A stretch of DNA of 64,000 bases from positions 39,721 to 103,720 of the forward strand of contig CAMAUL010000003.1 in NCBI GenBank assembly GCA_945861405.1, read 5' to 3'. The position numbers were made by a program, and so were the translations under genes. The notes beneath the pieces are model-generated. The model was not told the DNA's origin. It ran no database searches and was given only the letters and a program-made list of their open reading frames with translations. This DNA comes from Candidatus Methylobacter oryzae. GTDB taxonomy: Bacteria; Pseudomonadota; Gammaproteobacteria; Methylococcales; Methylomonadaceae. The number at the start of each line of letters is the position of its first letter. The stretch's first letter is position 1. Positions 5,347-61,230 of the stretch are shown here, piece by piece.

Positions 5347-5536
5347 GTTCCCATGCCGGAGTGCTCATCGTTATACATAAGTTCCCAAATAACGTCATAC
5401 CCGCCGGGAAGCGGGTATCCAGTGCCATGGATGGTAATTTTAAATACGTCCATGTAGTCTGGATTCCGGCAATCCCTGCCGGAATGACGTGCTTTTAAAT
5501 ATTTGTGTATAACAATGAGCACTCCGGCATGGGAAC
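5347..5536. repeat. Composite REPIN/MITE-like element with 33-bp terminal inverted repeats
   Basis: 5347-5379 GTTCCCATGCCGGAGTGCTCATCGTTATACATA pairs with 5504-5536 (2 mismatches in 33). An inner inverted REP pair is present at ~5393-5423 and ~5459-5490. Confidence 0.85.
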
Positions 5537-10375: not shown

Positions 10376-10425
10376 TCCCGGCAACTGCTCCATGCGTTGC
10401 TCTACCTCCTGCATCCATGCAAGTC
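10376..10425. repeat. Copy of the CGACTGCATGGATGCAGGAGGTAGAGC repeat family (reverse orientation)
   Basis: CTCCATGCGTTGCTCTACCTCCTGCATCCATGCAAGTCG; other copies near 48632, 49036 and 52541. Confidence 0.75.
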
Positions 10426-13973: not shown

Positions 13974-14394
13974 ATCTAATCAGAACACGGATGCCAAAAG
14001 TAGGCGCTTCTAAGCGACGCGGATTAGGACGGATTTACACGGATTTTATTTTCTGTATTTCCCGCAATCTGCCTCGTTCAGTGATTACCGTTACATGCCC
14101 AAGGCGCACACAGCGTACCCTACAATGGTTTTGGGTATGCAAACTTTTTACTTAAGTTTGATGCGCATAAGGTAATACCATGTCCGGCATGAAGCGTCCA
14201 AAGCCAGCTTTGGACTCCAGAAAACGCAAATATTGGAGTTCAAAGCTGGCTTTGAACATCATGATTCTAAACAGCATGATTTATGGCGTTCGGAATCCAA
14301 TGTCAACCGGGTGATTAGTTACAAACACAAAAAATAAAATCGGTGTAAATCCGTATCATCCTTGTTTCGCCTTTTCTTTTGTAAAATTTCTCAC

Positions 14395-19179: not shown

Positions 19180-20790
19180 ATGAACAAAAAAATTACCCGC
19201 GCGCTAATCAGCGTATCCGATAAATCCGGTATCGTGGATTTTTGTCGGGAGCTCAATCAGTTGGGCATCGAAATCCTGTCTACCGGCGGCACTGCCAAAA
19301 CGCTGGCCGAACACAACATTCCGGCAACCGAGGTGTCCGATTACACCGGTTTCCCGGAAATGATGGACGGCCGGGTTAAAACCTTGCACCCCAAAGTCCA
19401 CGGCGGCATTTTGGCGCGTCGGGGCATTGATGATGCGGTGATGGCAGCGAACGGCATTAAGCCGATCGATATGGTGGTGGTCAACCTGTACCCATTCGAA
19501 CAAACTATCGCTAACCCGGACTGCGATTTAGATACCGCTATTGAAAATATCGACATCGGCGGCCCAACCATGATCCGCGCCGCGGCTAAAAATCATGCCG
19601 ATGTCGCGGTGATCGTCGATCCTGCCGATTACGCATCGGTTATCGCCGAACTGAAAGGCAATAACACTGGACTATCCCAGCAAACCCGCTTCAATCTGGC
19701 GCTAAAAAGTTTCGAACACACGGCGCGTTACGACACCGCGATTTCAGCCTACCTCGGCAACATTCGCCGCGCCAGTTCCCGACAGGCTTGCGGCATACAC
19801 ACCATCCCTGGCGATAATGGCGTCCAGTTTCCCGAAACGCTGAACTTGCAGTTTTATCATAACCAGAGCATGCGTTATGGCGAAAATCCGCATCAAAACG
19901 CGGCGTTTTACCGGGAAAAATCACCGGCCAGCGGCACTATTGCCGCCGCCAAGCAACTGCAAGGCAAGGAACTGTCTTACAACAACATTGCCGATGCCGA
20001 TGCCGCGCTGGAATGCGTCAAATCGTTTGGCGAGCTGCCAACCTGCGTCATCGTCAAACACGCCAACCCCTGCGGCGTAGCCCAAGCTGGCAACCTGCTT
20101 GCCGCTTACGACAAGGCTTATGCAACCGACCCGACCTCGGCATTCGGCGGCATTATCGCGTTTAACCGGGAACTGGACGAACAAACCGCCGCTGAAATCG
20201 TCAAGCGTCAATTTGTCGAAGTCATTATTGCGCCGTCCATCAGCGCAGCCGCGCAAGCTGTTTTGGCTGAAAAGCAAAATGTCCGGGTGCTGGAATGCAG
20301 CCAATGGAGCAATGTTACCCAGCCGTCGCTGGATTTCAAACGCGTCGCCGGAGGCTTGCTGGTTCAGGACAAGGATCTAGGCGAAATAACCGCCGCCGAC
20401 ATCAAAATAGTCAGCAAACGCGCTCCAACCGAACAGGAGATGGCCGATTTGCTGTTCGCCTGGAAAGTCGCCAAATTCGTCAAATCCAATGCGATTGTGT
20501 ACTGCAAAAACGGCCAGACTATCGGCGTCGGCGCAGGACAAATGAGCCGGGTTTATTCGGCCAGAATCGCCGGTATCAAAGCCGCCGATGCAGGATTGGA
20601 TGTTCCGGGTTCCGCGATGGCTTCCGACGCCTTTTTCCCGTTCAGGGACGGCATCGATTCCGCTGCCGAAGCGGGCATCACCGCCGTCATTCAGCCCGGC
20701 GGCTCGATGCGCGACAATGAAGTCATAGCCGCAGCCGACGAGCACAATATCGCGATGGTCTTTACCGGCATGCGTCATTTCAGGCATTAA
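19180..20790 (+). CDS. purH: Bifunctional AICAR transformylase / IMP cyclohydrolase
   Basis: [49 protein letters not shown]. Carries an in-frame 17-codon repeat at 19765-19815. Confidence 0.98.
19765..19815 (+). repeat. 17-codon intragenic repeat, copy 1 (in purH)
   Basis: cgccgcgccagttcccgacaggcttgcggcatacacaccatccctggcgat ([17 protein letters not shown]); 48/51 identical to the reverse complement of 60736-60786. Confidence 0.9.
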
Positions 20791-24362: not shown

Positions 24363-24470
24363 AATTATATAGTATCATTATTTAGTATCAAAATAACTAC
24401 TCCATCGACACATTGGGAGCGATTTTTAAACGCCAGTTAAACGTTCATTCTTCCGCTTGATACAAGTTGC

Positions 24471-24523
24471 CATCCATGGCGTCTGGATCCCGGCATTCCC
24501 TGCCGGAATGACGTGCTGTGTTG
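24471..24523. repeat. REP copy CTGGATCCCGGCATTCCCTGCCGGAATGACG
   Basis: Shares its core with repeats at 5459-5490 and 60097-60245. Confidence 0.85.
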
Positions 24524-24609
24524 ATGCCTTTGCTTTTTGGAAAAAAACCGCATTTTTAAACACACCCCGACACATTCGTTCAATTCTTTGTGTCTTCGTG
24601 ATGTATTAA

Positions 24610-35557: not shown

Positions 35558-36640
35558 ATGACCACATCCACACACGCCTTTACTATCCACATGAATGCTT
35601 TTTCAATAGCCTGTCTTTTTATACTCAGCGTTACTTTAAGTTTCGCCGATGATGACGACAAACCCGTTACCAAGCCGCCCGAATCCGCTGGGCCGGGGAC
35701 TGTTTTCCTATCCACCAAATCCCAATCCTTATCGGGCTTGCAAACGATAACGCTAACTCCCGCCAGCCATCATGCCGAATTTACGGCTTACGGCAAAGCG
35801 GTCAACATACAACCCTTGATCGAGTTACGGCATCGGTATTTGGTTACGTTATCCGAGCGTGGCGGCGCTACGGCAAGGTTTAAGGAGGCTGAGCAGAACA
35901 TCCAGCGCCAACAAGACTTGTATCATGAGGGCGCGACATCGAAACGCAACTTGCAAGTCCAACAAGCGCAATGGCAAACCGATAAAGCCCAGGTCGATGC
36001 CAGCAGCGTTCAAGGCAAGGCTATCGCTGCTGAAGCCAGGCTCAACTGGGGCGAAAAACTTACCGAATGGGCATTAGCCACGGATTCCGACAAACTGAGT
36101 GCTTTTTTATCCGGCCAAAAAACGCTGCTGCAAATTACCTTGCCGGTTAACAAACAGCTGGTGAACGATATTTCGAGCATTGATGTTGAAGCCTCCGGCA
36201 ACCGCAGTGCGGCCAGCAAAGCCGAGCTGATTTCAGCAGCTCCGCAAACCGATACCACCGTGCAAGGCGAAAGCTATTTTTTCCAGACCGATGGCCGCCG
36301 CAACTGCTCCGGGCAGTCTTGCGGCAACCACACCATCCCTGGCGACAACCATATCAGAACCGGCATGCGCGTTGCGGCCTGGATACCCGAACAAGGCGAA
36401 AACCAGTCCGGCGTTGTTATCCCAAAATCCGCTTTAGTCTGGCACCTGGATCAGGCTTTTGTTTACATTAAAACGGCGGAAGAACAATTCAGCCGCCGCA
36501 CGATAGATCAGTATTCGCCAACGTCCGGCGGCTATTTTGTCGGCAGCGGCATCAAGGCAGGCGAGCAACTGGTTGTCACGGGCGGACAAATGCTGCTGTC
36601 GGAAGAATTTCGGGGGCAAATTCCGAATGAGGATGATTAA
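35558..36640 (+). CDS. HlyD/RND periplasmic adaptor-like protein
   Basis: Signal peptide; NIQRQQDLYHEGATSKRNLQVQQAQWQTDKAQVDAS; RTGMRVAAWIPEQGENQSGVVIPKSALVW. Carries the 17-codon repeat. Confidence 0.75.
   Translation: MTTSTHAFTIHMNAFSIACLFILSVTLSFADDDDKPVTKPPESAGPGTVFLSTKSQSLSGLQTITLTPASHHAEFTAYGKAVNIQPLIELRHRYLVTLSERGGATARFKEAEQNIQRQQDLYHEGATSKRNLQVQQAQWQTDKAQVDASSVQGKAIAAEARLNWGEKLTEWALATDSDKLSAFLSGQKTLLQITLPVNKQLVNDISSIDVEASGNRSAASKAELISAAPQTDTTVQGESYFFQTDGRRNCSGQSCGNHTIPGDNHIRTGMRVAAWIPEQGENQSGVVIPKSALVWHLDQAFVYIKTAEEQFSRRTIDQYSPTSGGYFVGSGIKAGEQLVVTGGQMLLSEEFRGQIPNEDD
36296..36346 (+). repeat. 17-codon intragenic repeat, copy 2 (diverged; in HlyD-like gene)
   Basis: cgccgcaactgctccgggcagtcttgcggcaaccacaccatccctggcgac (RRNCSGQSCGNHTIPGD); ~41/51 identical to the purH copy. 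Confidence 0.75.
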
Positions 36641-45139: not shown

Positions 45140-45206
45140 TGTAACTGATCACCCTGATAGACACCGGATTTTGAACGTCATAAAACATGCAGTTTAGAGC
45201 GATAAG

Positions 45207-45268
45207 GTTCAAAGCCAGCTTTGAACTCCGACATCCACGTTTTCTGGAGTCCAAAGCTGGCTTTGGAC
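45207..45268. repeat. 62-bp repeat GTTCAAAGCCAGCTTTGAACTCC...GGAGTCCAAAGCTGGCTTTGGAC
   Basis: Same length and architecture as 14196-14257 and 53599-53660. Confidence 0.92.
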
Positions 45269-45344
45269 ATTTCAAAATCGGCTTTGCGATTTAATAAGGT
45301 GTGAGTAGTTGCCGATTAATAACTATAAAAATTAAGGTAAAACA

Positions 45345-48727: not shown

Positions 48728-49042
48728 ATGCTGGACGATCTTATTTTAATAGCTTTATTGCTGTGCGCATACCTGTATTGGTTTAATGGGCAACAGGCGA
48801 AGGAGATTGCGCTTAAAGCGGTCAGGGCACACTGCCTGAATCTGGACGTGCAAATGCTCGATGAGTATGTCGCCTTAAGCGGCATCCGGCTGAAAAGGGA
48901 GCCGACCGGAAAAATACGCCTGCGCCGGACATTTTTGTTTGAATTTTCTTCAACCGGAAATGAGCGCTATAACGGGGTTTGTATAATGGTGGGGAAGCGG
49001 GTCGAATCCATTCAGATGGAGCCGTACCGGATTGACGACTGA
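48728..49042 (+). CDS. DUF3301 family protein
   Basis: 104 aa N-terminal TM; AVRAHCLNLDVQMLDEYVALSGIRLKREPTGKIRLRRTFLFEFSSTGNERYNG. Confidence 0.85.
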   Translation: MLDDLILIALLLCAYLYWFNGQQAKEIALKAVRAHCLNLDVQMLDEYVALSGIRLKREPTGKIRLRRTFLFEFSSTGNERYNGVCIMVGKRVESIQMEPYRIDD

Positions 49043-49120
49043 AGGGATGCAGGAGGTAGAGCAACGCAGGGAGCAGTTGCCGATGAGTCTTGAAGAAATG
49101 TTTTTATTCTAGAAAAGCAT

Positions 49121-51324: not shown

Positions 51325-51587
51325 GATTTTGTTCCTTACAGTGGCTGTGGACGCCGCAACAATAGCGGCTAAAATATATGCCATTTTATCAGGCCGAGTC
51401 CTATGCTTTATTCGCAATTCCTGCTTAAATACACGGTCATATCGGGTCGCGTCAATGACATCGGTTCGGCGGCTGTTATAATATCAAAGCTCTGGGATCG
51501 GTAACCTGGACACTAATTCTACTTTAGCCGCGACTGCTCTTGGCAGTCTTGGCATACACATCAACCCTGACGATAAAGAGGAACGCA

Positions 51588-52520: not shown

Positions 52521-52540
52521 AAAAGCATGTTAGAAAAATA

Positions 52541-52588
52541 CGACTGCATGGATGCAGGAGGTAGAGCAGCGCAGGAGCAGTTGCCGAG
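52541..52588. repeat. CGACTGCATGGATGCAGGAGGTAGAGCAGCGCAGGAGCAGTTGCCGAG repeat
   Basis: Near-identical to 49036-49084 and the reverse complement at 10376-10425. Confidence 0.85.
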
Positions 52589-53526: not shown

Positions 53527-53598
53527 ATCATGTCCGGGCGACCTTTCGGTTGTCCAAGCTAAAGCTGTAGTAACTACTCACCCTATTGGATTTCGTAT

Positions 53599-53660
53599 GT
53601 TCAAAGCTAGCTTTGAACTCCGATATTAACGCTTTTTGGAGTCCAAAGCTGGCTTTGGTC
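53599..53660. repeat. 62-bp repeat of the GTTCAAAGC/GTCCAAAGC family
   Basis: GTTCAAAGCTAGCTTTGAACTCCGATATTAACGCTTTTTGGAGTCCAAAGCTGGCTTTGGTC. Confidence 0.9.
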
Positions 53661-53705
53661 GATTTAAAGTTGTGCATGAAATAAATTCACCGGATGTTTG
53701 CCGTG

Positions 53706-57787: not shown

Positions 57788-59806
<2,019 letters not shown>

Positions 59807-60096
59807 CCTTTACGGATGTAAGCTTAAGTTAAAGGATAATGCCGCAGATTGCAAGCTTAGCGCGCAACGCCGACGCCATAAATGCCTTATAAAACAAATT
59901 GTTTTAACGGGCAAGCCTCCTTAATATAGCCTTATTTAAAGTCCGCATCGACCCATCGCCTGCCATCAAGATGAATTACTCGCTCATTTTGAATCATCAT
60001 GAATTACGCAAAATTCAACACCCTTGGGCTAGCGCTTATCTCAGAAGCCTCCGGCTTATATCAAAACAAGGTAAAGATATTGCGCAAGCGTATCAT

Positions 60097-60250
60097 CGTC
60101 ATTCCGGCAGGGATTGCCGGAATCCAGAGCACAGGGATGTGAACGGTTGTGAACTACATAATTCCCCGTAGCAAGACTTGTGTCCAGCTTTGATATTGCA
60201 TCCATGGCTTCTGGATCCCGGCAATCCCTGCCGGGATGACGTGTTGTGTA
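60097..60250. repeat. Inverted REP pair (CGTCATTCCGGCAGGGATTGCCGGAATCCAG ... CTGGATCCCGGCAATCCCTGCCGGGATGACG)
   Basis: Two REPs in opposite orientation ~65 nt apart. Confidence 0.88.
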
Positions 60251-60399
60251 GATACCTATGCACTTCACAAGGATAGGTACGGGGAATAATCTTCTAAAAA
60301 ACCGCACTTTTAATCACATCCTATCCGCCCTGTAAAAATGATTTTTTTTGTCAGCAATGTTAGAATCAGCACCATTATATGACTGACCAGACTTAACGG

Positions 60400-61230
60400 A
60401 TGTCAACAGACTCTCAACAGAACGCTCATCAATCGCCGGTACTGGAATTTAAAAGCAGCACGTTTTCTGTGCCTGTTTTGGTTTTAGCCAGCAATGATGT
60501 CATCACTATCGAGCAGCAATTACAGGAAAAAATCCATCAAGCGCCCGAGTTTTTCAAGAATTCGCCGCTGGTGTTTGATTTGCAAGAACTGAACAAACTC
60601 GATCTCGACATTGATGTTACCGAGCTCACCCATGTCATCCGCAAGCTGGGCTTATTGCCGATAGGGATACGCGGCGGCGGCGCACAACAAAACCAACAAG
60701 CTTTGGAACTTGGCATCCCTATACATTCCGGCCATATCGCCAGGGATGGTGTGTATGCCGCAAACCAGTCGGGAACTGGTGCGGCGAGCACTGCGACATC
60801 TTCCGGAGCGCCAAAACAGCAAGCTCCAGAACCAGAGCCAGAGCTTGAATCTGGGCATGATCATGAATCCGAACAAGAGTCCACAGCTGAACCGCAAGCC
60901 GTTGCTGTAAACACCACCATAATCACCCACCCCGTCCGTTCAGGTCAGCGCATTTATGCAGCGGGTGATTTGGTCATTTTGGCTCAAGTCAGTGCAGGGG
61001 CTGAAATTCTGGCCGAAGGCAATATTCACGTTTACGGCTCGCTAAGAGGCCGGGCACTGGCAGGCGTGCAAGGCAACACCGAAGCACGAATTTTTTGTTC
61101 CGCTTTACAAGCAGAGCTGATTTCGATTGCCGGAAATTACAAGGTCAGCGAAGATTTGAATAGCGCCGCTCATATCCGGCCCGTTCAGATCTATTTACAA
61201 AACCACACTTTAGTTATTAAAGATATTTAA
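60400..61230 (+). CDS. minC: Septum site-determining protein MinC
   Basis: C-terminal VRSGQRIYAAGDLVILAQVSAGAEILAEGNIHVYGSLRGRALAGVQGNTEARIFCSALQAELISIAGNY; followed by minD-minE. The variable linker carries the 17-codon repeat in reverse. Confidence 0.95.
   Translation: MSTDSQQNAHQSPVLEFKSSTFSVPVLVLASNDVITIEQQLQEKIHQAPEFFKNSPLVFDLQELNKLDLDIDVTELTHVIRKLGLLPIGIRGGGAQQNQQALELGIPIHSGHIARDGVYAANQSGTGAASTATSSGAPKQQAPEPEPELESGHDHESEQESTAEPQAVAVNTTIITHPVRSGQRIYAAGDLVILAQVSAGAEILAEGNIHVYGSLRGRALAGVQGNTEARIFCSALQAELISIAGNYKVSEDLNSAAHIRPVQIYLQNHTLVIKDI
60736..60786 (-). repeat. 17-codon intragenic repeat, copy 3 (in minC, opposite orientation)
   Basis: Reverse complement cgccgcaccagttcccgactggtttgcggcatacacaccatccctggcgat; 48/51 identical to the purH copy. 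Sense reading [17 protein letters not shown]. Confidence 0.9.

Follow-up and report, generated by a model that had tools for sequence, protein, structure and literature searches.

The window, a stretch of 64,000 nucleotides from a contig of Candidatus Methylobacter oryzae, contains minC and purH, each of which carries a copy of the same short repeat within its coding sequence (Table 1). The minC copy is exactly one 51-nt element, ATCGCC...GCGGCG, hereafter family A. It agrees with the reverse complement of the purH block at 48 of 51 positions (53 nt and 94% as a repeat pair), as a sequence-only reading of this DNA had counted; two of the three differences form a single compensatory pair of hairpin 2 (A/T versus G/C, element positions 29 and 45). 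That reading had also placed the minC copy between the N- and C-terminal domains, which the Pfam boundaries bear out, and had called it the antisense copy. The two copies do lie on opposite strands, but the label is a convention: the structured strand is sense in minC and antisense in purH. A third, more diverged copy is added here to the two noted earlier; it lies in a 360-aa ORF that has no Pfam match.

Table 1. Features of the window and loci of related repeats; positions are those of the window unless a contig or locus is named.
Feature	Position	Strand	Remarks
minC host gene	60400..61230	+	276 aa; MinC_N 15-87, MinC_C 174-273 (Pfam); insert residues 113-129
Family A element in minC	60736..60786	+	Inserted at GGCCAT^AGCA; translated as 17 residues in the minC frame
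Hairpin 1 of minC copy	60738..60751	+	Stem CGCCA/TGGTG with G-U pair; loop GGGA (ANGGAU core)
Hairpin 2 of minC copy	60757..60785	+	GCCGC-AA-ACCAGT / ACTGGT-GCGGC; loop CGGGA
purH host gene	19180..20790	+	536 aa; insert residues 196-212
Family A element in purH	19765..19815	-	Antisense to gene; IMPCHase/AICARFT interdomain region; many relatives with empty site
Third family A element	36296..36346	-	More diverged, older; in 360-aa ORF 35558-36640; site empty in G019 (M. tundripaludum SV96)
Degenerate intergenic family A copy	51525..51575	-	Orthologous site of G019 carries a copy too
Family B loci	G000 C48, C41, C11:18707, C20:15116		L063, L075, L076, L078-L080
Family C loci	10379-10421, 49035-49070, 52540-52575; L233 about 2180-2225
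Two further palindromic families	14190-14311, 45153-45274, 53597-53668; 5446-5509, 24466-24533, 60097-60261
TPP riboswitch	59698-59814	-	Rfam RF00059

An 18-nt core of the element has 70 matches in the draft genome (3.58 Mb, 154 contigs), far above the chance expectation given by the reversed control pattern, which matches once. With E<=1 as the cut-off, the covariance model built from 26 copies picks out 88 places, of which about 64 belong to family A and 15 to a related family B. Phages, plasmids and viral contigs were searched for family A and gave no match. The element had been described as open in both orientations, and its consensus indeed contains no stop in any of the six frames, as do 134 of the 224 distinct units; however, when the consensus is shuffled by mononucleotides, 7% of the products are equally open, so that this openness is by itself weak evidence for the element and is not compelling as a designed property.

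Comparison with relatives reveals what the insertion does to its target. The minC site is empty (GGCCAT^AGCACC) in most Methylobacter orthologs and filled (GGCCAT-[ATCGCC...GCG]-AGCACT) in G000, G009, G012 and G006, and in the orientation of the element the purH site passes from GCCATT^AATATT to GCCATT-[51 nt]-AATGTT. Besides minC and purH, 14 other clusters have exact empty sites in relatives. Comparison over 1.94 Mb of G019 (Methylobacter tundripaludum SV96) gave 11 further 51-nt singles and three 102-nt dimers with empty counterparts, while several older insertions of that genome are common to the compared genomes but diverged. In the exact comparisons of empty and filled alleles the target is neither duplicated nor lost. 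Over 89 independent sites drawn from Methylobacter and close relatives it reads W-T^NNN-G, with T at -1 in 97%, A or T at -2 in 89% and G at +4 in 85%, against 30% for G at +4 among comparable sites in the window. Orientation is even, with 39 sense and 38 antisense insertions at the 77 sites that have a clear host gene. The exact empty sites, the fixed target motif and the balance of orientations sustain the earlier argument for mobility at the DNA level rather than convergence of proteins, and the comparison of MinC orthologs that it called for shows exact empty sites at the linker and a fixed 51-nt unit. The alternative, that ordinary peptide or tandem duplications arose in variable linkers by protein-level convergence or slippage without any mobility, could draw on the arrays of 51-nt period, some with identical units, and on the interdomain position of the minC and purH sites. 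It is refuted by the exact empty sites with their fixed DNA target and by the occurrence of the element in unrelated genes, in both orientations and in three main reading frames, and we give it practically no chance.

Since 51 is a multiple of three and the consensus is free of stops in every frame, an insertion adds 17 residues without a frameshift. The frames used (+0, 34; +1, 3; +2, 2; -0, 17; -1, 18; -2, 3) depart from what target availability would give (chi-square p=1.2e-7), and the later indels observed inside the minC and purH inserts have lengths divisible by three (9 nt in minC of G012, 9 nt and 36 nt in purH of G013 and G002, respectively). This skew and these indels indicate that selection treats the insert as coding, and it is thereby shown indirectly that the persisting copies are those in tolerated frames and protein regions. 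The hosts are housekeeping proteins, including ValRS (two sites), RapA, DnaN, PurH, MinC and HolC as well as aspartate carbamoyltransferase, RecO, UvrD, PDH E1, DHPS and AroA; in alignment with solved sliding clamps the insert of DnaN separates two aligned blocks, and solved PurH chains are shorter where PurH has its insert. Translation of the insert into a 17-residue peptide is strongly implied by these patterns, and the added peptide would be a near-neutral loop. Removal of the insert from the product by RNA splicing, by translational bypassing of the kind known from byp elements or by protein splicing would explain its tolerance in essential genes (ValRS, DnaN and PurH are among the hosts) and could make use of a structured element. 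Were the insert removed, neither the frame skew nor the multiple-of-three indels would be needed; in addition, half of the copies are antisense, and 51 nt offer no hallmark of an intein or intron. Removal is accordingly a very improbable reading, and frame selection together with in-frame indels favours plain translation. Taken as a whole, family A is very probably a non-autonomous, coding-compatible mobile element of 51 nt that has expanded across Methylobacter; the core of this claim, that the unit is mobile, 51 nt long and compatible with coding, is secure.

The expansion is evident from the many more copies found in the genus beyond the source genome. Most Methylobacter genomes have at least 24 matches, G004, G014 and G016 have 2-4, G017 has 8, and other genera have 0-11, all of these counts being lower bounds with at most 38 candidates scored per genome. 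The named records with copies belong to Methylobacter, with some in Methylovulum, Methyloglobulus, unclassified Methylococcaceae and one Aeromonadales MAG. On a tree of minC and purH, from which G012 is omitted (its minC is filled and a purH match is lacking), the minC insertion was gained once, in the clade of G000, G009 and G006, and the outgroup is empty. We found no case of relatives that share the linker insert and lack the repeat elsewhere, the insert being confined to a few related, repeat-rich Methylobacter genomes and the outgroup genera being empty. The purH insertion is scattered on the same tree, a pattern that calls either for an old gain with subsequent loss or recombination or for more than one gain at the same site.

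The + strand of the element folds into two hairpins, CGCCA-NGGA-TGGYG (hairpin 1) and GCCGC-AA-GCCAGT-CGGGA-ACTGGC-GCGGC (hairpin 2). Over 26 copies 97.1% of the cells are paired and seven pairs have changed on both sides, a result reached by none of 500 shuffles, and slid controls are only 23-51% paired; the covariation falls on 7 of the 11 pairs of hairpin 2. Folded singly against shuffles, the minC copy does better (z=-2.6) and the purH copy no better (z=-0.3). Read on the opposite strand, the fixed G-U pair of hairpin 1 becomes an A-C mismatch, so the folded + strand is likely the functional form. As a possible terminal inverted repeat the element has only CGCC/GGCG near its ends.

Both loops carry a near-invariant GGA, preceded in hairpin 1 by a variable base, and the two GGA sites are about 28 nt apart. 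The loop of hairpin 1, ANGGAU closed by C-G, has the core of CsrA sites, and TwoAYGGAY RNAs are likewise built of two hairpins with GGA-containing loops. The likeness to these and to the Csr/Rsm RNAs raises the question of whether family A might serve as CsrA/RsmA binding sites scattered over the genome, or as a sponge, and each Methylobacter genome searched has a single csrA gene. However, an Rfam search of two stretches containing family A matched the element to no family, Csr/Rsm and TwoAYGGAY included, the genomes with few copies have csrA too, and the element is dispersed, mobile and present in both orientations in genes. As half of the copies are antisense, their host mRNAs bear the complement, which excludes CsrA control of host mRNAs as a general function. 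Binding of CsrA to the RNA of the element itself is possible, and the reading of family A as a CsrA site or sponge is quite unlikely.

An exact 51-nt unit enters W-T^NNN-G in either orientation without duplication or loss of the target, and we propose that the mover would act in trans, recognising a folded single strand (ssDNA or RNA) and its GGA loops. Because the element starts with ATCG, a target is formed anew at its left junction (T^ATCG), and the head-to-tail arrays of 51-nt units, which reach five units, may arise partly through new insertions at this junction; identical neighbouring units in some arrays indicate that slippage contributes as well. An order with the oldest unit at the 3' end was considered, and the 5' unit is nearer the consensus in 19 of 28 informative arrays, a trend that is not significant (p=0.09). 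In rapA (L010; G000 C18:19088-19191 and 19415-19518) two dimers of opposite orientation lie about 220 nt apart and add 68 residues, and in ValRS (L061; G000 C36:799-902 and 3097 on) the insertions at residue 24 and residue 790 are both two-unit arrays.

Exact insertion without duplication, a preference on the 5' side of the target and conserved single-strand hairpins recall the Y1/HUH-type single-strand transposases, and such an enzyme is our tentative first guess for the mover, held at well below even confidence. The preference for G at +4 is not known to be typical of elements moved by these enzymes. IS200/IS605-derived elements resemble family A in inserting 3' of a preferred sequence (here W-T at -2 and -1) without duplication and in having a folded strand with hairpins at the ends. 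Unlike them, family A prefers G at +4 and has no TnpA element with A-like ends at the Y1 loci scanned. A RAYT or IS200-type partner was sought by reading and scanning the flanks with the model, and no credible family A copy lies near 26 Y1 loci (RAYT or IS200-type TnpA) of the same genome or genus nor near 20 further loci; the RAYT and IS200-type TnpA genes carry other repeats. An autonomous parent with split ends was also considered; the 13 left-only and 22 right-only candidates resemble decayed copies, other families or chance, and no left-only and right-only halves flanking a gene were seen in the DNA examined. Orientation relative to the lagging-strand template of replication in G019 is about 5 versus 3, from few usable copies.

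A more specific proposal would make family A a REP/REPIN mobilised by a RAYT (REP-associated tyrosine transposase) of the genome itself. Both are small, abundant, non-autonomous and hairpin-forming, fold as a single strand and insert without target duplication, and the genome does encode RAYT-type genes. These RAYT/TnpA genes are flanked by other palindromes, however, and none of the loci scanned carries a credible family A copy; the family A consensus (ATCGCCAGGGATGGTGTGTATG...) lacks the GTAG or CGTC tag beside the hairpin, and its copies are mainly intragenic whereas REPs are typically extragenic. We regard this proposal as unlikely.

Among known systems the closest kind, compared by description, would be found in Rickettsia and Wolbachia with their protein-coding palindromic elements, and no report of the family A element was found among the papers searched. 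Rickettsia palindromic elements (RPE) are maintained in frame within conserved genes (PMC2229807, PMC10969869). Like family A, they and the Wolbachia protein-coding palindromes are short hairpin repeats that many unrelated, conserved protein genes carry in frame and that keep their frames open. RPE measure 105-146 nt and occur in Alphaproteobacteria, whereas family A is exactly 51 nt and belongs to a gammaproteobacterial methanotroph genus, and its two GGA-loop hairpins, W-T^NNN-G target, lack of duplication and head-to-tail arrays set it apart. Because of the size mismatch, and with the comparison made by description rather than by sequence, we do not file family A as an RPE. ERIC, RU-2/YPAL and similar MITEs are likewise small and non-autonomous and may become in-frame parts of host genes (PMC2229807), but they are longer and chiefly intergenic, and Table 1 of PMC2229807 gives target duplications for them; the absence of a target site duplication at exact empty sites likewise distinguishes family A from DDE-type MITEs. 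Protein-coding selfish palindromes have so far been reported mainly from intracellular Alphaproteobacteria, and how they move is still open. Family A occurs in free-living methanotrophs with cultured hosts such as M. tundripaludum SV96, and filled and empty alleles in close genomes, a defined target and a defined fold make it possible to test both what the mover is and in what way the sliding clamp, ValRS and other highly conserved proteins cope with, or benefit from, an extra loop.

Other repeats share parts of this plan. Family B (GACCGCCAGGGATGGTGGAAGTGTCGCAATCGGTAGGGAACCGATGCGACC) has about 15 copies, which are also inserts of about 51 nt, often inside ORFs and at times in tandem. Family C (CGACTGCATGGATGCAGGAGGTAGAGCAACGCAGGAGCAGTTGCCG) has the two-hairpin plan with GGA loops, and one of its copies lies about 250 nt downstream of a RAYT-like gene. 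In the Aeromonadales MAG HyVt-500, a non-methanotroph, an element at L387 around 2928 on the minus strand combines an A-like hairpin 1 with a C-like hairpin 2. The two-hairpin, GGA-loop fold is common to families A, B and C and the Aeromonadales element, suggesting a broader superfamily in which the loops serve for recognition. It is conceivable, although we would sooner bet against it, that these four make up an undescribed superfamily with a folded single-strand, possibly RNA, intermediate and a mover distinct from both RAYTs and the known IS200-type transposases, the A branch repeatedly supplying essential proteins with 17-residue loops. A family A copy at another locus, L442 around 814 on the minus strand, has the loop of hairpin 2 swapped for a GTAG-type palindrome, GTAGGGGCGACC...GGTCGCCCCTAC, and is thus one mobile hairpin nested inside another. 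Two more dispersed palindromic repeat families, of the GTCCAAAGC... and CATCCATGGCGTCTGGATCCCGGC...GATGACG types, are present in the window.
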